From the IMG/VR virus record IMGVR_UViG_3300038724_000005, positions 1-46,233 of that record: a stretch of DNA of 46,233 nt; one strand, given 5' to 3'. Source of the stretch: a virus. The stretch's first letter is position 1; the number at the start of each line of letters is the position of its first letter. The position numbers and the translations under genes were made by a program. The notes under the pieces are model-generated. The model was not told the DNA's origin. It was given only the letters and a program-made list of their open reading frames with translations, and did not search any database. Shown piece by piece: positions 418-40,317 of this stretch.

Positions 418-468
418 AAATAACACGTCAGAGTGTGGGACGTTCCGCACTCATCCTCAGTGTTATGC
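418..468 (+). repeat. attC-like imperfect palindrome S1
   Basis: The ends are AATAACAC and GTGTTATG, and the centre pairs GAGTG with CACTC. The stop codon of the minus-strand 51-aa gene (463-465) overlaps the right end, as the stop codons do at S5 and S8 further right. At 51 bp it is at the short limit for an integron attC site. It lies close to attL. Confidence 0.55.
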
Positions 469-618
469 GATTACATTTCCAGTGGCTGCGAACATCATCC
501 CGACACAGATATACACTACCCAATGGTTGCTACGGCTGAGACTGGCAATCAAGCCAGCTACGCAAAACATCAAACCTGTGATTGTAAATCCAATACCCAT
601 CTTTCCCGCCCTACGCAT
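463..618 (-). CDS. 51-aa small two-helix membrane protein
   Basis: This short reading frame begins at ATG 618 with MRRAGKMGIG and continues as two hydrophobic stretches (about residues 7-26 and 33-51), separated by a short polar turn containing SRSNHW. It is basic at the N terminus and hydrophobic elsewhere, a composition that random frames rarely show. The TAA stop overlaps attC-like site S1. It is the last gene of the leftward run before attL. No strong ribosome binding site is visible. Function is unknown; it could be a small cassette-type or lysogenic-conversion membrane protein. Confidence 0.5.
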   Translation of the reverse strand: MRRAGKMGIGFTITGLMFCVAGLIASLSRSNHWVVYICVGMMFAATGNVIA

Positions 619-670
619 AGCAATGCGCTGTAATTAGTTTCTCGTATCCTCGCGACAATAAGCGGCGGGG

Positions 671-1009
671 TTATTTTTCTCTGATCTGCAATACTGGTTG
701 TCCGCCGCCAAAGGGATGACCGCCAAACTCAGCAACAATGCTTCCGTCTTGTGCATTCACTACGTGAGTCCACTCTATTTCAAAGCCTGAATCATCTTCT
801 CTATCATCACTCCAATCTGCAATTTCAAAAACCGCATACTTGCCTATAAAGCTTTCTGCTTTTTTTGTGGCTTCTTCTATGTCGTCAGTCTTGGCTAATA
901 AGTCCCAAGCGCCCCCGGACGCGTAATAATGAGAACCACCAAAGACGAAGAACAGAATAACAGGCTCAGTAGGGGTTGTTGTTTCGTTGGTTTGTTCTTG
1001 TTCTTCCAT
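671..1009 (-). CDS. Acidic 112-aa protein of unknown function
   Basis: The protein opens with a Glu/Gln/Thr-rich N terminus. It continues with an FFVFGGSHYYASGGA segment and a helix (residues about 45-60), and ends with strands rich in Asp/Glu and a GGHPFGGG loop. It is strongly acidic. A GGATGAG ribosome binding site precedes ATG 1009. It lies downstream of the integrase on the same strand, separated by a hairpin. I do not recognise a family. Proteins of this size and composition are common in mobile gene pools, which together with its position suggests an accessory gene rather than a core phage function. Confidence 0.7.
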   Translation of the reverse strand: MEEQEQTNETTTPTEPVILFFVFGGSHYYASGGAWDLLAKTDDIEEATKKAESFIGKYAVFEIADWSDDREDDSGFEIEWTHVVNAQDGSIVAEFGGHPFGGGQPVLQIREK

Positions 1010-1080: not shown

Positions 1081-2205
1081 TCACCGGGTCGCGGTGCCTT
1101 TTTTCAGTTTGAGATTATACAGCTCGGCCATGCGTTTGGTTTTGTGGCCAAGGTCTTTGCCGTCTGTTCCGGCTTTTTTCTTCATGTCATGCAATGTCAC
1201 GTCTGTGATGCCGGTGGCGGTTTTGACGTTGGTGAGTGCTTTTTGTAGTGCTGATTTGCTGATTCGGTCGCCACGGGTGTTGCGTATGATGGGGCGCTCG
1301 CGTATCGGTTCGATCTTTCCTGCTGGATATAAGCTGATGGCGGTATCGATGGCGGTTTGCAAGCGGTCGGTGATTTCGATCAGTTCGCCTTTTGAGCCTT
1401 TGCTGCGGATGATGCGCAGATAGTGGATGCCGTCTTCGATGATGATGTCTTCGAGGTTCAGTTTGCATACTTCGTTACGGCGCAGGCCGCCAAGGTAGGC
1501 GATTTCGAGGAGCGAGAAAAACCACGGCGTGGTGCTGTTGAGTGATGCTTCGAGCATTTGGAGGTATTGATCGTCGGTGATGTATACCTGGCGGGCGGTC
1601 TCTGGGAATTTTATCAGGCCGTCAGCGGGGTTTTGCTCCATGCCGGTGAGATATTGGCGCAGCCATTTGAAAAACGCCTGTAGGCAGCTCAGGTGTCGAT
1701 TTGCGGTGGTTGGCTTGGCTTTGCCATCGAGTATGCGGCCAGATGCCTGAGTGACGGTTTGCGGGGTGTTCCAGTAGTCCATATAGCGACGTATGTGCGT
1801 CGGTTTGACGTTAGTAGGGGTCATTGCTCCGAATACGTGGCGTATGCCGTTGTGGGTCGCTTTGCTGGCTGGGTTGCTTGGATCGACGATCACTTCGATG
1901 TAGCGGCGGTAGTCTTCTTGCGTGAGACGGCTGAGGCTAATGAATTTATCTGACACCATGAATTTGTTGAGCCAGTAGTTCACGTCTTTGGCGGGGCGGG
2001 CTTCGATGACGGCGCGGTCGTAGGCGTCCATCACTGCGCGGCGTAGTTCGACGGGTTCGACGATGTTTCCCGCTGGGTCGCGTTGTAGTTTAGCGAGCAC
2101 CTGGCATTTGCCACCCTTGGGGCGATATTCGTAGGACGATTTGCCGCGATAGACTCGGGACGGTAGCCAGTTGTCGGCGGTTGATTTGCGCTTGCGTGGT
2201 GTCAT
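1081..2205 (-). CDS. int: Phage tyrosine integrase
   Basis: The 374-aa product has the domain order of phage tyrosine recombinases: an N-terminal arm-binding part, a SAM-like core-binding domain (about 70-185), and a C-terminal catalytic domain. Box I is GGLRRNEV, with the catalytic Arg near 242. A hairpin Lys lies near 269-272. Box II reads LHDMKKK at 338-344, so the expected HxxR is HxxK here. A second His (LGH, 354) and the nucleophile Tyr (ELY, 363) are in place. The gene lies next to attL in tRNA-His and points toward it. I recall related prophage integrases with HDLK, so Lys342 may be a subfamily trait rather than a defect. Confidence 0.93.
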   Translation of the reverse strand: MTPRKRKSTADNWLPSRVYRGKSSYEYRPKGGKCQVLAKLQRDPAGNIVEPVELRRAVMDAYDRAVIEARPAKDVNYWLNKFMVSDKFISLSRLTQEDYRRYIEVIVDPSNPASKATHNGIRHVFGAMTPTNVKPTHIRRYMDYWNTPQTVTQASGRILDGKAKPTTANRHLSCLQAFFKWLRQYLTGMEQNPADGLIKFPETARQVYITDDQYLQMLEASLNSTTPWFFSLLEIAYLGGLRRNEVCKLNLEDIIIEDGIHYLRIIRSKGSKGELIEITDRLQTAIDTAISLYPAGKIEPIRERPIIRNTRGDRISKSALQKALTNVKTATGITDVTLHDMKKKAGTDGKDLGHKTKRMAELYNLKLKKGTATR

Positions 2206-2472: not shown

Positions 2473-2985
2473 TTACGCTGCTTCTAGTGCTCGTTCGAGC
2501 TGTCTGATTAATGTTGCATTCGCTGTGTGATCTCGATCCCACGGTTTGTGTGCTGTGAATAATGTGATGATGTCACGTTGGATTTTTTCGAGATCAACGC
2601 GGTGGTCTGGCACTAGAAAGAAGCCACTGCTGCATACGTGATTGAGGTTTTGTTGCTCGACAAAATGCCAGTGCATATCGTCTATTTTTTGATTGATGGC
2701 GGCGCGGGTTTGCGGTACGTCGATAGTATGCAACTCGATTTTTGTGCCGCATTCAAAACCGGTATCGAGAAATACGAGTAGCATGATTGACCACGTGTTT
2801 TTTCGATTTAATATCTTAATGGCTTGGGCGGTACTGATGTGGTGTTTTGGGTTGCCGACTTCAGCGCCTAGTGCGGACATCATTGTGCCGTGCATGTAAA
2901 AAGTGGTGGCTTTTACGGAGTCACGGTTGCGTTGCTCAATTCGGGCGGCGCGGGCTTTTCGTGATTTTTTTTGATGTTTTTTCAT
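2473..2985 (-). CDS. 170-aa phage protein of unknown function
   Basis: The N terminus is highly basic (MKKHQKKSRKARAARIEQ). It is followed by a mixed alpha/beta body with several His and Cys residues and an Ala-rich C-terminal helix. I do not recognise a family. The basic head suggests nucleic acid contact, but this is a guess. ATG 2985 lies 24 bp past attC-like site S3, so the gene is the first one downstream of the cassette-like block and may itself have been the anchor for it. It is followed after 12 bp by the DUF4224-like gene. Confidence 0.65.
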   Translation of the reverse strand: MKKHQKKSRKARAARIEQRNRDSVKATTFYMHGTMMSALGAEVGNPKHHISTAQAIKILNRKNTWSIMLLVFLDTGFECGTKIELHTIDVPQTRAAINQKIDDMHWHFVEQQNLNHVCSSGFFLVPDHRVDLEKIQRDIITLFTAHKPWDRDHTANATLIRQLERALEAA

Positions 2986-3009
2986 ATTTAAATCTCAGTT
3001 AAATTCATT

Positions 3010-3061
3010 CAATAACACATTCACAGCGCGGGACCTTCGGCCCGCGTGCTCAGCGTTATTT
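3010..3061 (+). repeat. attC-like imperfect palindrome S3
   Basis: It starts CAATAAC and ends GTTATTT. The inner arms pair GCGCGGG with CCCGCGT. It lies 6 bp past the stop codon of the PAPS-reductase-like gene and 24 bp before the 170-aa gene. Total length is 52 bp. It is the leftmost member of the contiguous set S3-S8. Confidence 0.7.
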
Positions 3062-3067
3062 CACTCG

Positions 3068-3769
3068 TTAGCCGTCATAGCAGCCGCAAGCAATCTCCGT
3101 ACTGTTGTAAAGCTCAGGGAACATATCATCTGTTGCGATAACGCTACTCCAGCTAAATGACCTCCCAAGCCCCGTCGCCACTGTTAAATTTGCATTTTTT
3201 TCTATTTTTAAAGCACGATCCATTAATTCTGGATGCTGCACGCTGAGAGCGCGAATTTCTCCGGCTTTCATTGCAGGGCAAAAAAAACAACTGCTTTTCC
3301 CCGGCAACGGCAATCCTTCTTTTTCAATTGCATCAATACATTCTTTACGGCCCCATCCCCAGCTTATCAATGGATACTCAGTGCTTGGATCGTCTTTAAT
3401 TCTGTGTGATTCGCCAGCATCTATGCCAACGTAAAACAATTCTGCTTTAATTCCGTTGGCTTTAAGCCAGCGCTTTTGTGGTCTGATTTTGTAGTGCTCG
3501 CTGCAACTTTTGAAACCGTATGCCAACCCCGGCAATGCCTTACGATTTAAGCAGTCAGATTCTAATGTTTGCTTTTCTCTACATATAGATATTTCCGGAA
3601 ATCCGTTATCTAGACACCAGCGCTTCATTATTTTCAAATGCTCGTATGTTTCCGGCTTCTCGCCGCCTGTGTCAGCAAATAAAATTACGTCAGGCTTTAT
3701 TCCGCGCTGCTTAAATCCTACCAACATAGCAGCGCTATTTGTTCCCGCTCCGTAGCTCATTACTTTCAT
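3068..3769 (-). CDS. Phage PAPS-reductase-family protein (cassette gene)
   Basis: The 233-aa protein has the N-type ATP pyrophosphatase start SYGAGTNSAAML (a variant of SGGKDS), then FADTGGEKPETYEH, and YGFKSCSEHYK near the middle. It has a paired-cysteine motif SSCFFCPAM near residue 160 and a C-terminal CGC. This is the PAPS reductase/sulfotransferase-like family (PF01507-type) common in phages and defence-linked loci. The family activates or transfers sulfur or reduces PAPS; which reaction this one performs is unknown. The stop lies 6 bp before S3 and the start 19 bp after S4, so it fills one cassette-like unit alone. Confidence 0.85.
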   Translation of the reverse strand: MKVMSYGAGTNSAAMLVGFKQRGIKPDVILFADTGGEKPETYEHLKIMKRWCLDNGFPEISICREKQTLESDCLNRKALPGLAYGFKSCSEHYKIRPQKRWLKANGIKAELFYVGIDAGESHRIKDDPSTEYPLISWGWGRKECIDAIEKEGLPLPGKSSCFFCPAMKAGEIRALSVQHPELMDRALKIEKNANLTVATGLGRSFSWSSVIATDDMFPELYNSTEIACGCYDG

Positions 3770-3788
3770 GTCAGAACCCTAGTTCGTG

Positions 3789-3851
3789 AAATAACAATTC
3801 ACTTTTGTCAGATGTTCGCTGTGGCTCACACAGCAAAGCTCTGGGTTATTG
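3789..3851 (+). repeat. attC-like imperfect palindrome S4
   Basis: The left arm reads AATAACAATTCACTTTTG and the right end CTGGGTTATTG. The TAACAATTC start is the same as in classical class 1 integron attC sites of aadA type, read on the plus strand. The stop codon of the 63-aa gene (3852-3854) abuts its right edge. The PAPS-reductase-like gene starts 19 bp from its left edge. Confidence 0.75.
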
Positions 3852-4043
3852 CTACTCGTTGCCAACTCTGGCGAAGTTGCGTAACTCGACCCAGTCGCAC
3901 TCGTCAAACTTGAATATATCAACGCCATCAGCTGGATAGCCGGTCTGATTGATATAACGCTCCTTCGCCTCTGCTTTTGTTGTTGCTGCTCCAGAATATA
4001 TTTTAGTGCCGCCTTCACCTTCGATTCTAATAAGTTCTGCCAT
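3852..4043 (-). CDS. 63-aa protein of unknown function (cassette gene)
   Basis: I start it at ATG 4043 (MAELIRIEGEGG), preceded by a GGAGGGC ribosome binding site that lies between the site S5 and the start. An upstream in-frame ATG at 4073 falls inside S5 and is less likely. The small acidic protein looks like alternating strands plus one helix (TKAEAKERYINQTG). It has one Cys and an FDECDWVEL segment. I do not recognise a family. It fills one unit between S5 and S4 alone. Confidence 0.75.
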   Translation of the reverse strand: MAELIRIEGEGGTKIYSGAATTKAEAKERYINQTGYPADGVDIFKFDECDWVELRNFARVGNE

Positions 4044-4060
4044 TTCGTTGCCCTCCAGAG

Positions 4061-4124
4061 CAATAACAAACATTTAAAATTGGACTGTCGCTAGCGCTCC
4101 AGCCCGTTAAAATTGGTGTTATGT
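4061..4124 (+). repeat. attC-like imperfect palindrome S5
   Basis: CAATAAC at the left pairs with GTTATGT at the right. The left arm TAACAAACATTTAAAATT and the right CCCGTTAAAATTGG keep the register of Vibrio-type attC arms. The GGACTG and CCAGCCC segments also match that class. The centre is a GCTAGCGC palindrome. The left arm carries the extra unpaired bases, which in classical sites marks the end next to the gene stop codon. Here the gene start is at that end. Confidence 0.8.
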
Positions 4125-4289
4125 GTCTTTCTTTTTTATAGCTTCATTTAGCTCAGCCAGAATTCTCTCTGCTGTAGCTTCACTGTAATGATGTCTATTA
4201 AAAAGCTCCTCTCCGAATTCGTTATAGCTTCTAACAAGCATCGTCACGCCTTCTCCTTTTCGCCGCTCAAACTTTGGGTATTCGTCCAT
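4119..4289 (-). CDS. 56-aa acidic/helical protein (cassette gene)
   Basis: This frame runs from ATG 4289 (MDEYPKFERRKGEG) to a TAA inside S5. A GGAG ribosome binding site precedes the start by 9 bp, and the start lies 19 bp from S6. The C-terminal half (SEATAERILAELNEAIKKK) is a clear amphipathic helix. No family recognised. The ribosome binding site, the fixed spacing to S6 and the stop within S5 support it as a real gene. Confidence 0.7.
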   Translation of the reverse strand: MDEYPKFERRKGEGVTMLVRSYNEFGEELFNRHHYSEATAERILAELNEAIKKKDT

Positions 4290-4308
4290 TTCCTAGCTCC
4301 AGAAATAC

Positions 4309-4384
4309 ACATAACAAACATTTAAAAATGGAGCGCCTTACTCGCTGGCGCTCCCTCGTTGCCCAATTAAAACTGGGGTTATTG
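4309..4384 (+). repeat. attC-like imperfect palindrome S6
   Basis: It starts ACATAACAAACATTTAAA and ends AACTGGGGTTATTG. The inner stem pairs GGAGCGCC with GGCGCTCC perfectly. At 76 bp it is the longest of the set. The left arm repeats the first 14 bases of the S5 arm from TAAC on. Confidence 0.8.
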
Positions 4385-4385
4385 C

Positions 4386-4562
4386 TCACCATCGCCGTTT
4401 ATTTGCACGTGCGCGGTACTGTGATTCGATTACTGCCTGTCGTTCTATTTTATTTATCTGTTCTGATTTTTTATGTGCATTCTTAAGTGCATTTTCAAAT
4501 TCAATTACGCACTCCAAGCAACTGGTGCTTTTGTTCCCGTGTTTACATTCTGTATATTTCAT
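4386..4562 (-). CDS. 58-aa Cys/His-rich helical protein (cassette gene)
   Basis: The frame starts at ATG 4562 with a strong GGGAGGG ribosome binding site and stops with TGA one base from S6. The N terminus has a potential zinc site (C6-x2-H-x6-C15-x2-C18). The rest is one long charged helix ending in RARANKRRW. A tiny zinc-binding, nucleic-acid-contacting protein is plausible but unproven. It is the only gene between S7 and S6. Confidence 0.7.
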   Translation of the reverse strand: MKYTECKHGNKSTSCLECVIEFENALKNAHKKSEQINKIERQAVIESQYRARANKRRW

Positions 4563-4578
4563 AATTAACCCTCCCGAG

Positions 4579-4640
4579 CAATAACAAATAATTCAATTCG
4601 GACGTCGCTAAAGCTCCGCCCATTAAAACTAGGGTTATGC
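4579..4640 (+). repeat. attC-like imperfect palindrome S7
   Basis: The left arm is CAATAACAAATAATTCAA followed by CGGACG. The right arm is CTCCGCCC, ATTAAAACTAGG and GTTATGC, a good match to the GTTRRRY-type core. It is 62 bp long, 16 bp before the 58-aa gene start and 24 bp after the Gp49-like stop. It is one of the clearest members of the set. Confidence 0.82.
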
Positions 4641-4664
4641 GCCCCGTACTGGCGGCGCTGATTG

Positions 4665-4982
4665 TTAACTTTTAGCGTCGTGGAGTTTTTGTTTCAGTGC
4701 GTAGCCCTCCAACTCCCAGACTTGGCATTGCGAGTTGTCAATCGCAATTTTTTCACCAAGCTCTGCGTTATCATTTTCTGGTGAAACACTACAGGAGGGT
4801 TTACCAACGACAGCAAAACCGTTTTCCATTGTCAGTACCGCCCAGCGCAAAGTCTGACCAGTTTTTGTTACATGCTTGACAATTTCCACATCTGTAATTT
4901 TTTTATGTAATCCTTCCAGAGTTACGCGAGGTGCATTTAAACCTTTCTCAACAATTTCTTTTTCAGCATCTTGGTCTTTCAT
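4665..4982 (-). CDS. Gp49-family phage protein (cassette gene)
   Basis: I start it at ATG 4982 (MKDQDAEKEIVEKGLN), with a GGAG ribosome binding site just past S8. An upstream ATG at 5054 would run through S8 and is rejected. Residues about 25-100 match the phage Gp49/Gp66-like family (PF13876 type): a KITDVEI opening, a WAVLTMENGFAVVG core, CSVSPENDNAELGEKIA, and a WELEGYALKQKL end. The family is widespread in tailed phages; its function is unknown. That a typical phage gene sits as a single cassette-like unit is notable. Confidence 0.82.
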   Translation of the reverse strand: MKDQDAEKEIVEKGLNAPRVTLEGLHKKITDVEIVKHVTKTGQTLRWAVLTMENGFAVVGKPSCSVSPENDNAELGEKIAIDNSQCQVWELEGYALKQKLHDAKS

Positions 4983-5001
4983 GGTTTCTATCTCCGCCAG
5001 C

Positions 5002-5063
5002 GCATAACAAAGGTAGGCAGCAGGACGGCGCTGGCGCTTCGCCTCCGCTACCAAGGGTTATTT
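5002..5063 (+). repeat. attC-like imperfect palindrome S8
   Basis: It starts GCATAACAAAGGTAGG and ends CTACCAAGGGTTATTT. Both GGTAG/CTACC and GGCGCTGGCGCTTCGCC pair in the stem. The TAA stop of the 64-aa gene overlaps the right end. It is the rightmost attC-like site and marks the junction between the methylase operon and the cassette-like block. Confidence 0.78.
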
Positions 5064-5252
5064 CCCTGCAGTTTTTGCATTCAGTTCTGCAATCAATGGG
5101 TCGATTTTTTCTTGATCTTCAACGTGAAGGCTCCAATCTTGATTGCATCCACATCCGTAACAGTTTTTTCGCCCCGCTTCATTTACACCAATCTCATTGG
5201 ATGTTAGTTCGAGTAATTCACAGCACTTATGGCATAGGTATATTTGCTTCAC
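5058..5252 (-). CDS. 64-aa cysteine-rich (zinc-ribbon-like) protein
   Basis: The start is GTG 5252, whose GTGA overlaps the TGA stop of the methyltransferase, with a GGAGAG ribosome binding site. Cys pairs at residues about 7/10/11 (CHKCC) and near 31-36 (CYGCGC) could bind one zinc, and the C-terminal half is acidic and helical. The role is unknown. Because it is translationally coupled to the methylase it belongs to the phage operon rather than to the cassettes. Its stop overlaps S8. Confidence 0.75.
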   Translation of the reverse strand: MKQIYLCHKCCELLELTSNEIGVNEAGRKNCYGCGCNQDWSLHVEDQEKIDPLIAELNAKTAGK

Positions 5253-6694
5253 GCTGCTCTCCGGTTTTTCTGTTGTTGTTCAGTGTTGGCTTTGGCAATG
5301 GCGGCTATTAATCCCGGTGGTACTGAGTTGCCAACCATTCGCACTTGTGCGGTTTTAGAGAGTGGCTTTCCGTCAGCGGTGCGGTCGTGGATGTATCCCT
5401 CTAGGAATCCTTGAGCGATGTACAGCTCGTGGGCTGTCAGCATGCGCATTCCGATGTCGATTATCTGATAGGTCTCGCCGTTTATTTTTACGAGTACTAA
5501 TCCAAATCGATCATTGGTTGTGATGGTGTGTAGGGGCTGGTTTATGTCGCAGCCGTCTTTGTCGTTGCCGTAATATTTAACTAAGAATGCTGACACTAAG
5601 GCGTGATGATCGGTTGTTGTTATCGTGTCGAGTGGGGCGCGCATGTCGATGCCTGCGCCGGTGTAGTTGCCGCCATAGTGTTTAACGAGAAATGCGGTAA
5701 CTAATGCAAAGTGCCCGCCTTTTACGCCTGCGCATATTGTGCGCAGGGGTTCGTCACCTGGCATGTTTCGTTGGTTGCTGGCGTTGGCGTGTTCGGTGAT
5801 GAAGGTCACTTTGTTGTTGTCGATTAAATACGGGTTTTCTGCATCGATAACGAAGCGTTTCATGCCGCGTGCAATGCGCTTCATGGTGTTTTCTACTAGC
5901 GGTTTTTTGCGAGTAAATATCGACGGGCAGGGTATCGACCAGTCAATGCAGTCGGCTGCGGTTTTGTACGGGAGTAAGCCGTCGCCGTGAGTAGGTTTTG
6001 GCCACTGCACTTGGTCGCCATCGCAGCGGGCAACCATGAAAAAACGTTTTCTAGTGGTTGGTATGCCGTAGTCGCAGGCGCGTAATTCTTTGAAATCTAC
6101 GTTATAACCAAGCCCTTTAAATACTGCTGTTATATCAAAGCCAGCGGGTAAAAATTCGCATAGCTCTTTTGCGGCGGGGTGTGATTTTTTAATGCCGGTG
6201 GTGAGCATTAAAATAAAGGCGTCGAAGGTTTCACCGGCGCGTTCTTTGATTGGATGGCCTTCTTCATTCAGTGGCCCCCATGTTTTAAATTCTTCGACGT
6301 TTTCGAGGCTGATTTTTTCGGGGCGTTTGAGTATTGCCCACTTGATGACGATCCAAGCAAGGCCACGAATTTCTTTCTTTTTCGGTTTTCCGCCACGGGC
6401 TTTGCTGTGGTGTGTGCAGTCTGGCGAAAAATGCGCCCATTCAACCGGTAGGCCGTGGGTGGCTTTTATTGGGTCTACGTCCCAGACTGATTCGCAGTAG
6501 TGCTCTGTGTCAGGGTGGTTCGCCTGGTGCATGGAAATCGCTTCAGGGTTGTGATTGATTGCTATATCAACCGGGCGATTGAATGCCATTTCTAGGCCCA
6601 TTGATGCACCGCCACCACCGGCGAAGTTGTCGACGATCAGGGCGTTGGGTAGGTGTAGGCCCATTTGTCCGATGGTGGCGTTGTAGATGTGCAT
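5249..6694 (-). CDS. Phage C5 DNA cytosine methyltransferase
   Basis: The 481-aa protein shows the motif order of C5 methyltransferases. Motif I is DNFAGGGGASMGLE (about 22-35). Motif IV contains the catalytic Cys93 in SPDCTHHS (an Asp sits between Pro and Cys where most have PC). Motif VI is ENVEE (131-135), and the C terminus carries MVGNSVPP (motif X). It would methylate cytosine in a short target and probably protects phage DNA from host restriction. No partner nuclease gene lies beside it. The start overlaps the upstream stop (TAATG), and the downstream 64-aa gene is coupled by GTGA. Confidence 0.93.
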   Translation of the reverse strand: MHIYNATIGQMGLHLPNALIVDNFAGGGGASMGLEMAFNRPVDIAINHNPEAISMHQANHPDTEHYCESVWDVDPIKATHGLPVEWAHFSPDCTHHSKARGGKPKKKEIRGLAWIVIKWAILKRPEKISLENVEEFKTWGPLNEEGHPIKERAGETFDAFILMLTTGIKKSHPAAKELCEFLPAGFDITAVFKGLGYNVDFKELRACDYGIPTTRKRFFMVARCDGDQVQWPKPTHGDGLLPYKTAADCIDWSIPCPSIFTRKKPLVENTMKRIARGMKRFVIDAENPYLIDNNKVTFITEHANASNQRNMPGDEPLRTICAGVKGGHFALVTAFLVKHYGGNYTGAGIDMRAPLDTITTTDHHALVSAFLVKYYGNDKDGCDINQPLHTITTNDRFGLVLVKINGETYQIIDIGMRMLTAHELYIAQGFLEGYIHDRTADGKPLSKTAQVRMVGNSVPPGLIAAIAKANTEQQQKNRRAA

Positions 6695-7071
6695 TAGATG
6701 GCCATCCCGTTAGTTTCTGCGGCTGACTCATCAATGATTTCGCTCAGGCCGTCAATCCAGTCGGCATCTATTACATAAACTTTCCCGGTGTCGCTTTGGG
6801 CTTCTTCTGCGTACTTTAATACAAGGTTGGCGGCTGATTTAATTGCGTGGGCCCTTGCTAAAAGCTCATGCGGAGTATGGTCATTGTCAACCATGGTTTT
6901 AATATTCTTCATTTGATGGTTGAGATAATCTTTAGTGGCGCTTAATTTTTCCTTTAACTGGGAAATTTCTAACACCGCCTTTTCACACACGGCTTCTGCC
7001 ATTTGTTCGCGCGGCATTTTCGCGTGGTCGATGTTGAGTGCTTCGGCAAGCTTAGCCATGGCGTTGTTCAT
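6694..7071 (-). CDS. 125-aa helical early protein
   Basis: I choose ATG 7071 (MNNAMAKLAEALN) because its ATGA overlaps the stop of the upstream gene; the longer frame to 7110 lies inside that gene. The product is nearly all helix, with a coiled-coil-like centre (LEISQLKEKLSATKDYLNHQ). A short acidic tail (DADWIDGLSEIIDES) follows. No family recognised. It is coupled to the methyltransferase by a TAATG overlap, so it is made with it. Confidence 0.75.
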   Translation of the reverse strand: MNNAMAKLAEALNIDHAKMPREQMAEAVCEKAVLEISQLKEKLSATKDYLNHQMKNIKTMVDNDHTPHELLARAHAIKSAANLVLKYAEEAQSDTGKVYVIDADWIDGLSEIIDESAAETNGMAI

Positions 7072-7310
7072 TTTGGCGCTCCTGTCTTGCGTGGGCGACC
7101 GCGTAGGCATAGCTCTCGGTGGTCCATATCAAACGGGCAGTTGCAGCGTGGGTAATTACAAGTTATTGCGGTTGGTGCGCTTCCGGTATGCCAGCCCTGA
7201 AGCACTTCAGCGCAGCGTTTTGCCATGACGTATGCGCCACCTAGAAAAATTGCTACTAGGGCGCCTATCGCTAGGGCGATGATAAAAAACAGCATGAGTA
7301 AGTCGTTCAT
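7068..7310 (-). CDS. 80-aa membrane-anchored Cys/His protein
   Basis: Residues 3-30 form one strong membrane segment (MNDLLMLFFIIALAIGAL onward). The polar tail has CNYPRCNCPFDMDHRELC, a possible zinc-binding arrangement of Cys, Asp and His, and a basic end. A GGAGC ribosome binding site lies 5 bp before ATG 7310. The function is unknown. It sits in a chain of overlapping early genes. Confidence 0.72.
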   Translation of the reverse strand: MNDLLMLFFIIALAIGALVAIFLGGAYVMAKRCAEVLQGWHTGSAPTAITCNYPRCNCPFDMDHRELCLRGRPRKTGAPK

Positions 7311-7327
7311 TTGAGCTCCTTATTTAT

Positions 7328-7399
7328 TTAGGCACCGATGCAGCCGATAACGGCGGCAATGATGAGTACGGTTAGCATTGGGATGAAGTTCGGCGTCAT
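7328..7399 (-). CDS. 23-aa membrane peptide
   Basis: The frame MTPNFIPMLTVLIIAAVIG followed by CIGA is a single membrane span. Its ATG overlaps the upstream stop (ATGA), as with several neighbours, and an AGGA lies upstream. Coupling plus composition support a real micro-gene, yet at this length chance cannot be excluded. It fills the gap between the 121-aa and 80-aa genes. Confidence 0.5.
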   Translation of the reverse strand: MTPNFIPMLTVLIIAAVIGCIGA

Positions 7400-40268: not shown

Positions 40269-40317
40269 GATTGTGATTCCTGTTGTCGCGGGTTCGATCC
40301 CCGTCGGCCACCCCATT
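40269..40317 (+). repeat. attR: attR core, 49-bp direct repeat
   Basis: Identical to 261-309. It keeps only the 3' half of tRNA-His, the original host half displaced by the prophage. The T-rich sequence after it (TTTTTCTCTTATTTTC) likely was the terminator of the tRNA operon before integration. Confidence 0.95.

Follow-up and report, generated by a model that had tools for sequence, protein, structure and literature searches.

Known cassette arrays in phages and bacteria

The attC sites of integron cassettes have the cores RYYYAAC and GTTRRRY, with exchange at G|TT. Cassette genes normally run in the same direction as attC, which is typical and not strictly defining, and cassette insertion is highly orientation specific. 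Extrahelical bases in the L'' box set the strand choice. Clusters of at least two attC sites with no integron integrase nearby are known as CALINs.

A total of 17 CALINs were described in 10,705 phage genomes (PMC9892861, Qi et al. 2023). Phage TJE1 possesses three predicted attC sites, and those that were tested recombine with IntI1; the cassettes of TJE1 and PH101 are arranged in the usual direction, and the attC sites of P12002L are divergent (PMC9892861). Similar to these phage CALINs, the locus described here and its relatives consist of attC clusters with single-ORF cassettes and no integrase, some of them encoding DNA methyltransferases. Unlike the published ones, in arrays of the present type all scorable genes oppose attC, a class of terminal hairpins (anchors) is shared, and two arrays are often present per phage.

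The sedentary chromosomal integrons of the host family, which possess the integron integrase IntI (TIGR02249), resemble the phage arrays in their R''/R' cores, GGAC-type L'' box, covarying hairpin and single ORF per site, and differ from them in the presence of IntI and in genes that run with attC. An orientation anomaly is also known from the integrons of Treponema, in which intI is reversed and turned toward the array; in the accessible part of that description, a statement that cassette genes oppose attC was not found (PMC3607928). The array studied here is best read as an inverted-polarity form among the already known phage CALINs. The initial annotation had presumed the arrangement to be novel in phages; phage CALINs as such had already been described (PMC9892861), but no earlier report of systematically inverted cassette arrays was found in the open-licence literature.

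Genomic setting of the prophage

The DNA analysed (the window, 46,233 nt) comprises positions 1 to 46,233 of virus record IMGVR_UViG_3300038724_000005. It harbours a prophage of lambda-like type, which encodes terminase, tape measure and tail proteins and is integrated at a tRNA-His gene (232-307). The host genes tig-clpP-clpX-lon, read from translations, are found to the right of the prophage, and along 5.5 kb the host flank shares 78-79% identity with genomes from the family to which the Oceanospirillaceae MAG RS342 belongs. The integrase of the prophage is distinct from integron integrases, and no relative was found when it was aligned to sequenced genomes.

261-309, no strand: attL, 49-bp exact direct repeat of the tRNA-His 3' end, left end of the prophage
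1081-2205, minus strand: phage tyrosine integrase of the tRNA-His type (PF00589, 4.5e-14; phrog_1)
40269-40317: attR, partner of the 49-bp repeat of attL

Structure of the main array

The main array extends from 3010 to 5063, and its sites (S3 to S8) and genes are as follows.

2473-2985, minus strand: conserved 170-aa gene, 3' boundary of the array (95% identity in L083, 72% in L084)
3010-3061, plus strand: S3, terminal site in the anchor position (19.2 bits on plus)
3068-3769, minus strand: PAPS-reductase-like gene, 233 aa, cassette with S4 (phrog_424, 4.5e-36; cassette shared with the P2-like phage contig L003)
about 3789-3851, plus strand: S4, attC of the PAPS cassette (scored alone, 9.3 bits on plus against 4.7 on minus)
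3852-4043, minus strand: 63-aa gene, cassette with S5 (the prophage of MAG RS342 has this cassette at 95% identity)
4061-4124, plus strand: S5, attC (19.6 bits on plus)
4119-4289, minus strand: 56-aa gene, cassette with S6, stop codon inside the S5 core
4309-4384, plus strand: S6, attC (11.1 bits on plus; folding z -2.64)
4386-4562, minus strand: 58-aa gene, cassette with S7 (from the ORF list)
4579-4640, plus strand: S7, attC (22.5 bits on plus)
4665-4982, minus strand: N4 Gp49/Sf6 gp66-like gene, 105 aa, cassette with S8 (PF13876, 7e-16)
5002-5063, plus strand: S8, attC, last site toward the promoter (28.0 bits on plus)
5058-5252, minus strand: 64-aa gene, stop codon inside the S8 core (from the ORF list)
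5249-6694, minus strand: C5 DNA methyltransferase, 5' boundary of the array (phrog_116, 2.4e-95; 82% identity in L084, 97% in L085)

All six imperfect palindromes reported by the initial annotation are present, and a single ORF occupies each of the five intervals between neighbouring sites, as had been described. Start codons lie 14-19 nt beyond the preceding site, and stop codons lie between 6 nt inside and 24 nt before the next site, which oversteps the limit of 0-24 bp given for them. Ribosome binding sites between site and start had been predicted throughout; a Shine-Dalgarno motif was scored for four of the five array genes. In 38 cassettes of this kind, translation starts a median of 16 nt beyond the site and ends most often at the TAA within the next core. 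Promoter-like matches in the array were no more numerous than in shuffled sequences, so the cassettes have no evident promoter of their own. The S4 site recurs in L003, again upstream of the PAPS gene, and in L085, where a different gene follows it. Terminators had also been considered for the palindromes and were rejected, since a search of the gene strand from 2900 to 5400 gave no intrinsic terminator.

Identification of attC sites

The covariance model used for attC (R1) comprises 17 IntI-linked sites, 16 from the host family and the dfrB2 site of R388, with the phage sites excluded; its structure was set by hand and its training polarity was fixed by IntI. The R1 alignment has 94% paired cells and a covariation of 0.487, against 0.132 after shuffling. 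Searching the whole window with R1, a check of the kind which the initial annotation had proposed for 2900-5200, matched five sites of the array (28.0, 22.5, 19.6, 19.2 and 11.1 bits), all on the plus strand, and S4 is supported weakly. Outside the array the model gave one stray match only (12.0 bits), and a lone stray in 46 kb argues that the cluster of sites is not due to chance. As an outside control, R1 matched three sites in Tetrasphaera phage TJE1 in gene direction, with scores (23.8-27.8 bits) in the range of those of the window. Sites in a Vibrio phage integron were matched as well, and no convincing site was found in the first 50 kb of phage PH101.

Single-strand folding, also proposed at the outset, gave z values of -3.3, -2.8, -1.1, -2.6, +0.25 and -1.1 for S3 to S8 in order, and was significant for some sites only. 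A sequence-only attC profile was too weak for many sites, with 16 of the 16 scored sites antisense, and generic scans for TAAC...GTTA hairpins returned many false matches. The cores of the window mostly read GTTATT or GTTATG, so the RRR of the consensus is not strictly kept. At least two model-detected attC sites are located within 2 kb and an integron integrase is absent, as in a CALIN; a complete integron, with intI and attI in cis, is not present. By the covariance model, the six hairpins of the main array are classified as attC-type sites, S4 being weak, as is S1 of the second array (10.4 bits).

Orientation of genes and attC sites

In the window array all R1 matches are on the plus strand and all genes on the minus strand, and the same opposed polarity is present in the related phage loci L083, L084 and L086 and in the RS342 prophage. 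In the control arrays, 92 of 92 R1 matches lie on the strand running away from IntI. Orientation was then tallied for the longest ORF between neighbouring sites. Among 47 inter-site intervals of phages, for which some sites were set by eye or by the anchor pattern and not by R1, no gene runs in the direction of attC, 41 run opposite and 6 are ambiguous; the scorable genes fall into 36 unrelated protein clusters. The chromosomal integrons, counted together with one Vibrio phage array, show the reverse, with 63 genes in the same direction, 4 opposite and 4 ambiguous. A Fisher test of the first 30 phage genes against these controls gives 5e-21, a value that overstates independence, as some cassettes share a locus. 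The count of extrahelical bases in the left arm favours the stated polarity weakly in phage attC sites (12 to 5) and by 24 to 4 in the controls, and is neutral for the anchors. Judged from the model-assigned strands, the attC sites of the phage arrays face against their genes. Such inverted phage arrays would allow the determinants of cassette polarity to be tested directly.

Terminal anchors and the second array

The arrays of the relatives of the window end, on the transcription-distal side, in a hairpin of another class. This anchor has the form TAACAC-N13..17-CTCGTNCCTCG-N13..17-GTTAT, and a related GGGACC form exists, for example S3. Anchors with the CTCGTNCCTCG loop were detected at 19 loci on about 15 viral contigs and in one of 392 genomes of the order, on the RS342 contig that carries the prophage; unlike in window-type phages, the class was not found in the other genomes of the order. 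The loop is invariant and the arms covary (91% paired cells; covariation 0.348 against 0.131, counted on the stated structure); with RNAalifold, the anchor alignment yielded no consensus.

S3 has the same 45-bp body as the tRNA-end site of L084, with homology confined to the body. The terminal sites of the window (3010-3061) and L083 (9139-9196) differ, and their flanks share 96% identity as far as the GTTATTG core on the far side. This swap between near-identical flanks suggests that both ends are exchange points, and the differing anchor bodies are unexplained by simple exchange at the R' core. As its first site, each array has a hairpin anchor and no recognisable attI; placed where attI would be, the anchor may by analogy act in an attI-like manner.

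A second, decaying cassette array is located between the integrase and attL of the window, at 418-1009. Its tRNA end is formed by S1, whose position matches the anchors of L084, L085 and L086, and its other site, S2, gave no match to the attC model.

418-470, plus strand: S1, anchor-like (10.4 bits on plus, 6.2 on minus)
463-600, minus strand: short membrane-like ORF (internal ATG; 45-51 aa), cassette of the second array, stop codon in the S1 core
614-676, plus strand: S2, degenerate attC, both cores mutated (TAGC, GCTATG), otherwise resembling sites d/e of L083
671-1009, minus strand: 112-aa gene between the integrase and S2 (identical protein in L083)

The 55-kb record IMG/VR 3300025671_000081 (L159 and L153) possesses three anchors, and its two integrase genes are separated by about 2.85 kb. 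The anchor pair of L159 is identical, each anchor having its own array, which may reflect duplication or a tandem prophage. Several array ends share an inverted repeat of the form GTGGTTNGTTCNATTTTGGAACNTACCAC, which lies at 7404-7437 in L083 and just beyond the tRNA-side anchor in L085 and L086.

Exchange of cassettes among phages

Most of the array loci compared are metagenomic contigs. Related phages with integrase identities of 97, 92 and 62% differ in the single-gene units that fill the space between the methyltransferase and the 170-aa gene, and likewise in those between integrase and tRNA; the initial annotation had suggested such a same-locus comparison. Over the 734 nt up to TGATAAC, L085 and L086 share 99.7% identity; they then have no cassette in common and finally reach the same anchor.

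The PAPS cassette is shared between the window and L003, with homology that begins at the upstream attC and ends at the TAA; the downstream site that follows is different. L003 is a contig with P2-like head genes, unlike the siphophage type of the window; we take its gene order to be P2-like. In three more shared pairs the alignment extends over the upstream attC and the gene as far as the stop codon, with divergence at the core, namely in cassettes of 63 aa (window and L142), 85 aa (L083 and L149) and 63 aa (L088 and L159), and in one shared pair of a 63-aa cassette a half-site divergence or mosaic was observed. In the fifth pair, L085 and L157, the gene and stop are common and the upstream site has diverged. 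Homology of the shared cassettes stops at AATAA|C = G|TT, the integron crossover triplet. The shared block of upstream site and gene points to the mobile unit that inverted polarity predicts; ordinary polarity would instead predict the gene and its downstream site. The ordinary cassette architecture implied by the initial annotation thus has to be turned around, as attC opposes the genes and the cassette consists of the gene and its upstream site. Its central proposal, an integron-like array without integrase inside a prophage, is supported by the independent model matches, the lack of IntI and the variation of related phages by single units.

Candidate recombinase and proposed mechanism

No match to the integron integrase (TIGR02249) was found in the window record, and no IntI above the cut-off in the other array-bearing records searched. 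Full IntI is encoded in 32 of 45 genomes of the host family. In RS342, which harbours such a prophage, IntI is present only in an internally deleted form. The locus concerned (L094, 1372-1917) retains a 181-aa IntI frame without its middle, model positions 132-272 being missing. As the phage encodes none, IntI of the host, acting in trans, is the likely agent and probably moves the phage cassettes, although the deleted IntI of RS342 speaks against it.

We consider, with a probability of roughly three in four, that the locus is a prophage operon of integron-type cassettes with inverted polarity, shuffled by site-specific recombination through host IntI in trans. The unit would read, in the direction of transcription, attC hairpin, Shine-Dalgarno, ORF and TAA, with the crossover of the next site directly after TAA or shortly downstream of the stop; at this position, exchange would leave the gene uncut and joined to its ribosome binding site. 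The attC sites (R'' to R') are oriented against the genes, so that in the integron frame the array would begin at the terminal anchor, where the phage operon has its 3' end, and extend toward the promoter. Units would be gained and lost at the G|TT core, the recombinase being supplied by the host. Polarity may be maintained because only inverted cassettes would be expressed in the phage operon. A gene would be expressed only if it opposes the array polarity set by the anchor, which would keep phage and bacterial cassette pools apart. The odds seem even that phages of marine gammaproteobacteria keep an inverted cassette pool of their own, docked at anchors that replace attI, traded between unrelated types (siphophage and P2-like) and separated from bacterial integrons by non-expression of the wrong polarity.

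Among the alternatives, a recombinase encoded by the phage, for instance the adjoining tyrosine integrase, could have converged on attC-like hairpins without involvement of IntI. The arrays flank the integrase gene on one or both sides in the window and in L083 to L086, the integrase also lies between sites in L142 and L159, and the conserved anchor loop is unseen in chromosomal arrays. However, the sites fit a model trained on IntI-linked sites, with the same cores and crossover position, and the arrays occur in phages with differing integrases. No tyrosine recombinase of any type is encoded in several viral records (20-56 kb) that have arrays or anchors; these count against the neighbouring integrase, though they may be fragments. 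We regard this explanation as unlikely, yet the most serious of the alternatives.

It is more doubtful still that the locus is an ordinary CALIN, in which the prophage would have captured a fragment of a bacterial chromosomal integron with genes and attC co-oriented. The host family is rich in integrons, and of the known phage CALINs two were described in the usual orientation (PMC9892861), which was confirmed here for TJE1. Nevertheless, polarity is opposite in every scorable case, the mobile unit includes the upstream site, and no homologue of the phage cassette proteins was found in the sampled chromosomal arrays of the host. The anchors, moreover, are confined to viral contigs and the single prophage-bearing contig among the 392 genomes.

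A reading of the palindromes as terminators or RNA hairpins of another kind, with ordinary mosaicism through homologous recombination behind the gene differences, is very improbable: some mosaicism at gene boundaries is normal in phages, and homologous exchange within shared sites is possible, with half-site mosaics in the 63-aa cassette, but the breakpoints fall at the same core triplet in independent events and the attC model matches the sites.

Cassette-encoded genes

If the reading as an inverted cassette operon is true, a coherent set of phages with the rule reversed, exact unit boundaries and traffic between unrelated phages would mean that viruses run their own modular, site-specific gene exchange. 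The arrays would also represent a store of small accessory genes of phages, among them DNA methyltransferases and many ORFs that match no Pfam family, which could be collected by cutting at attC. Array DNA was compared with isolate phage and plasmid collections, in which no array match was found. Pfam analysis of 20 cassette proteins of other arrays detected two DNA methyltransferases only. At the boundary of the array, where the window has its C5 methyltransferase, L083 has a different methyltransferase-like gene (6509-7397), with the neighbouring genes conserved.
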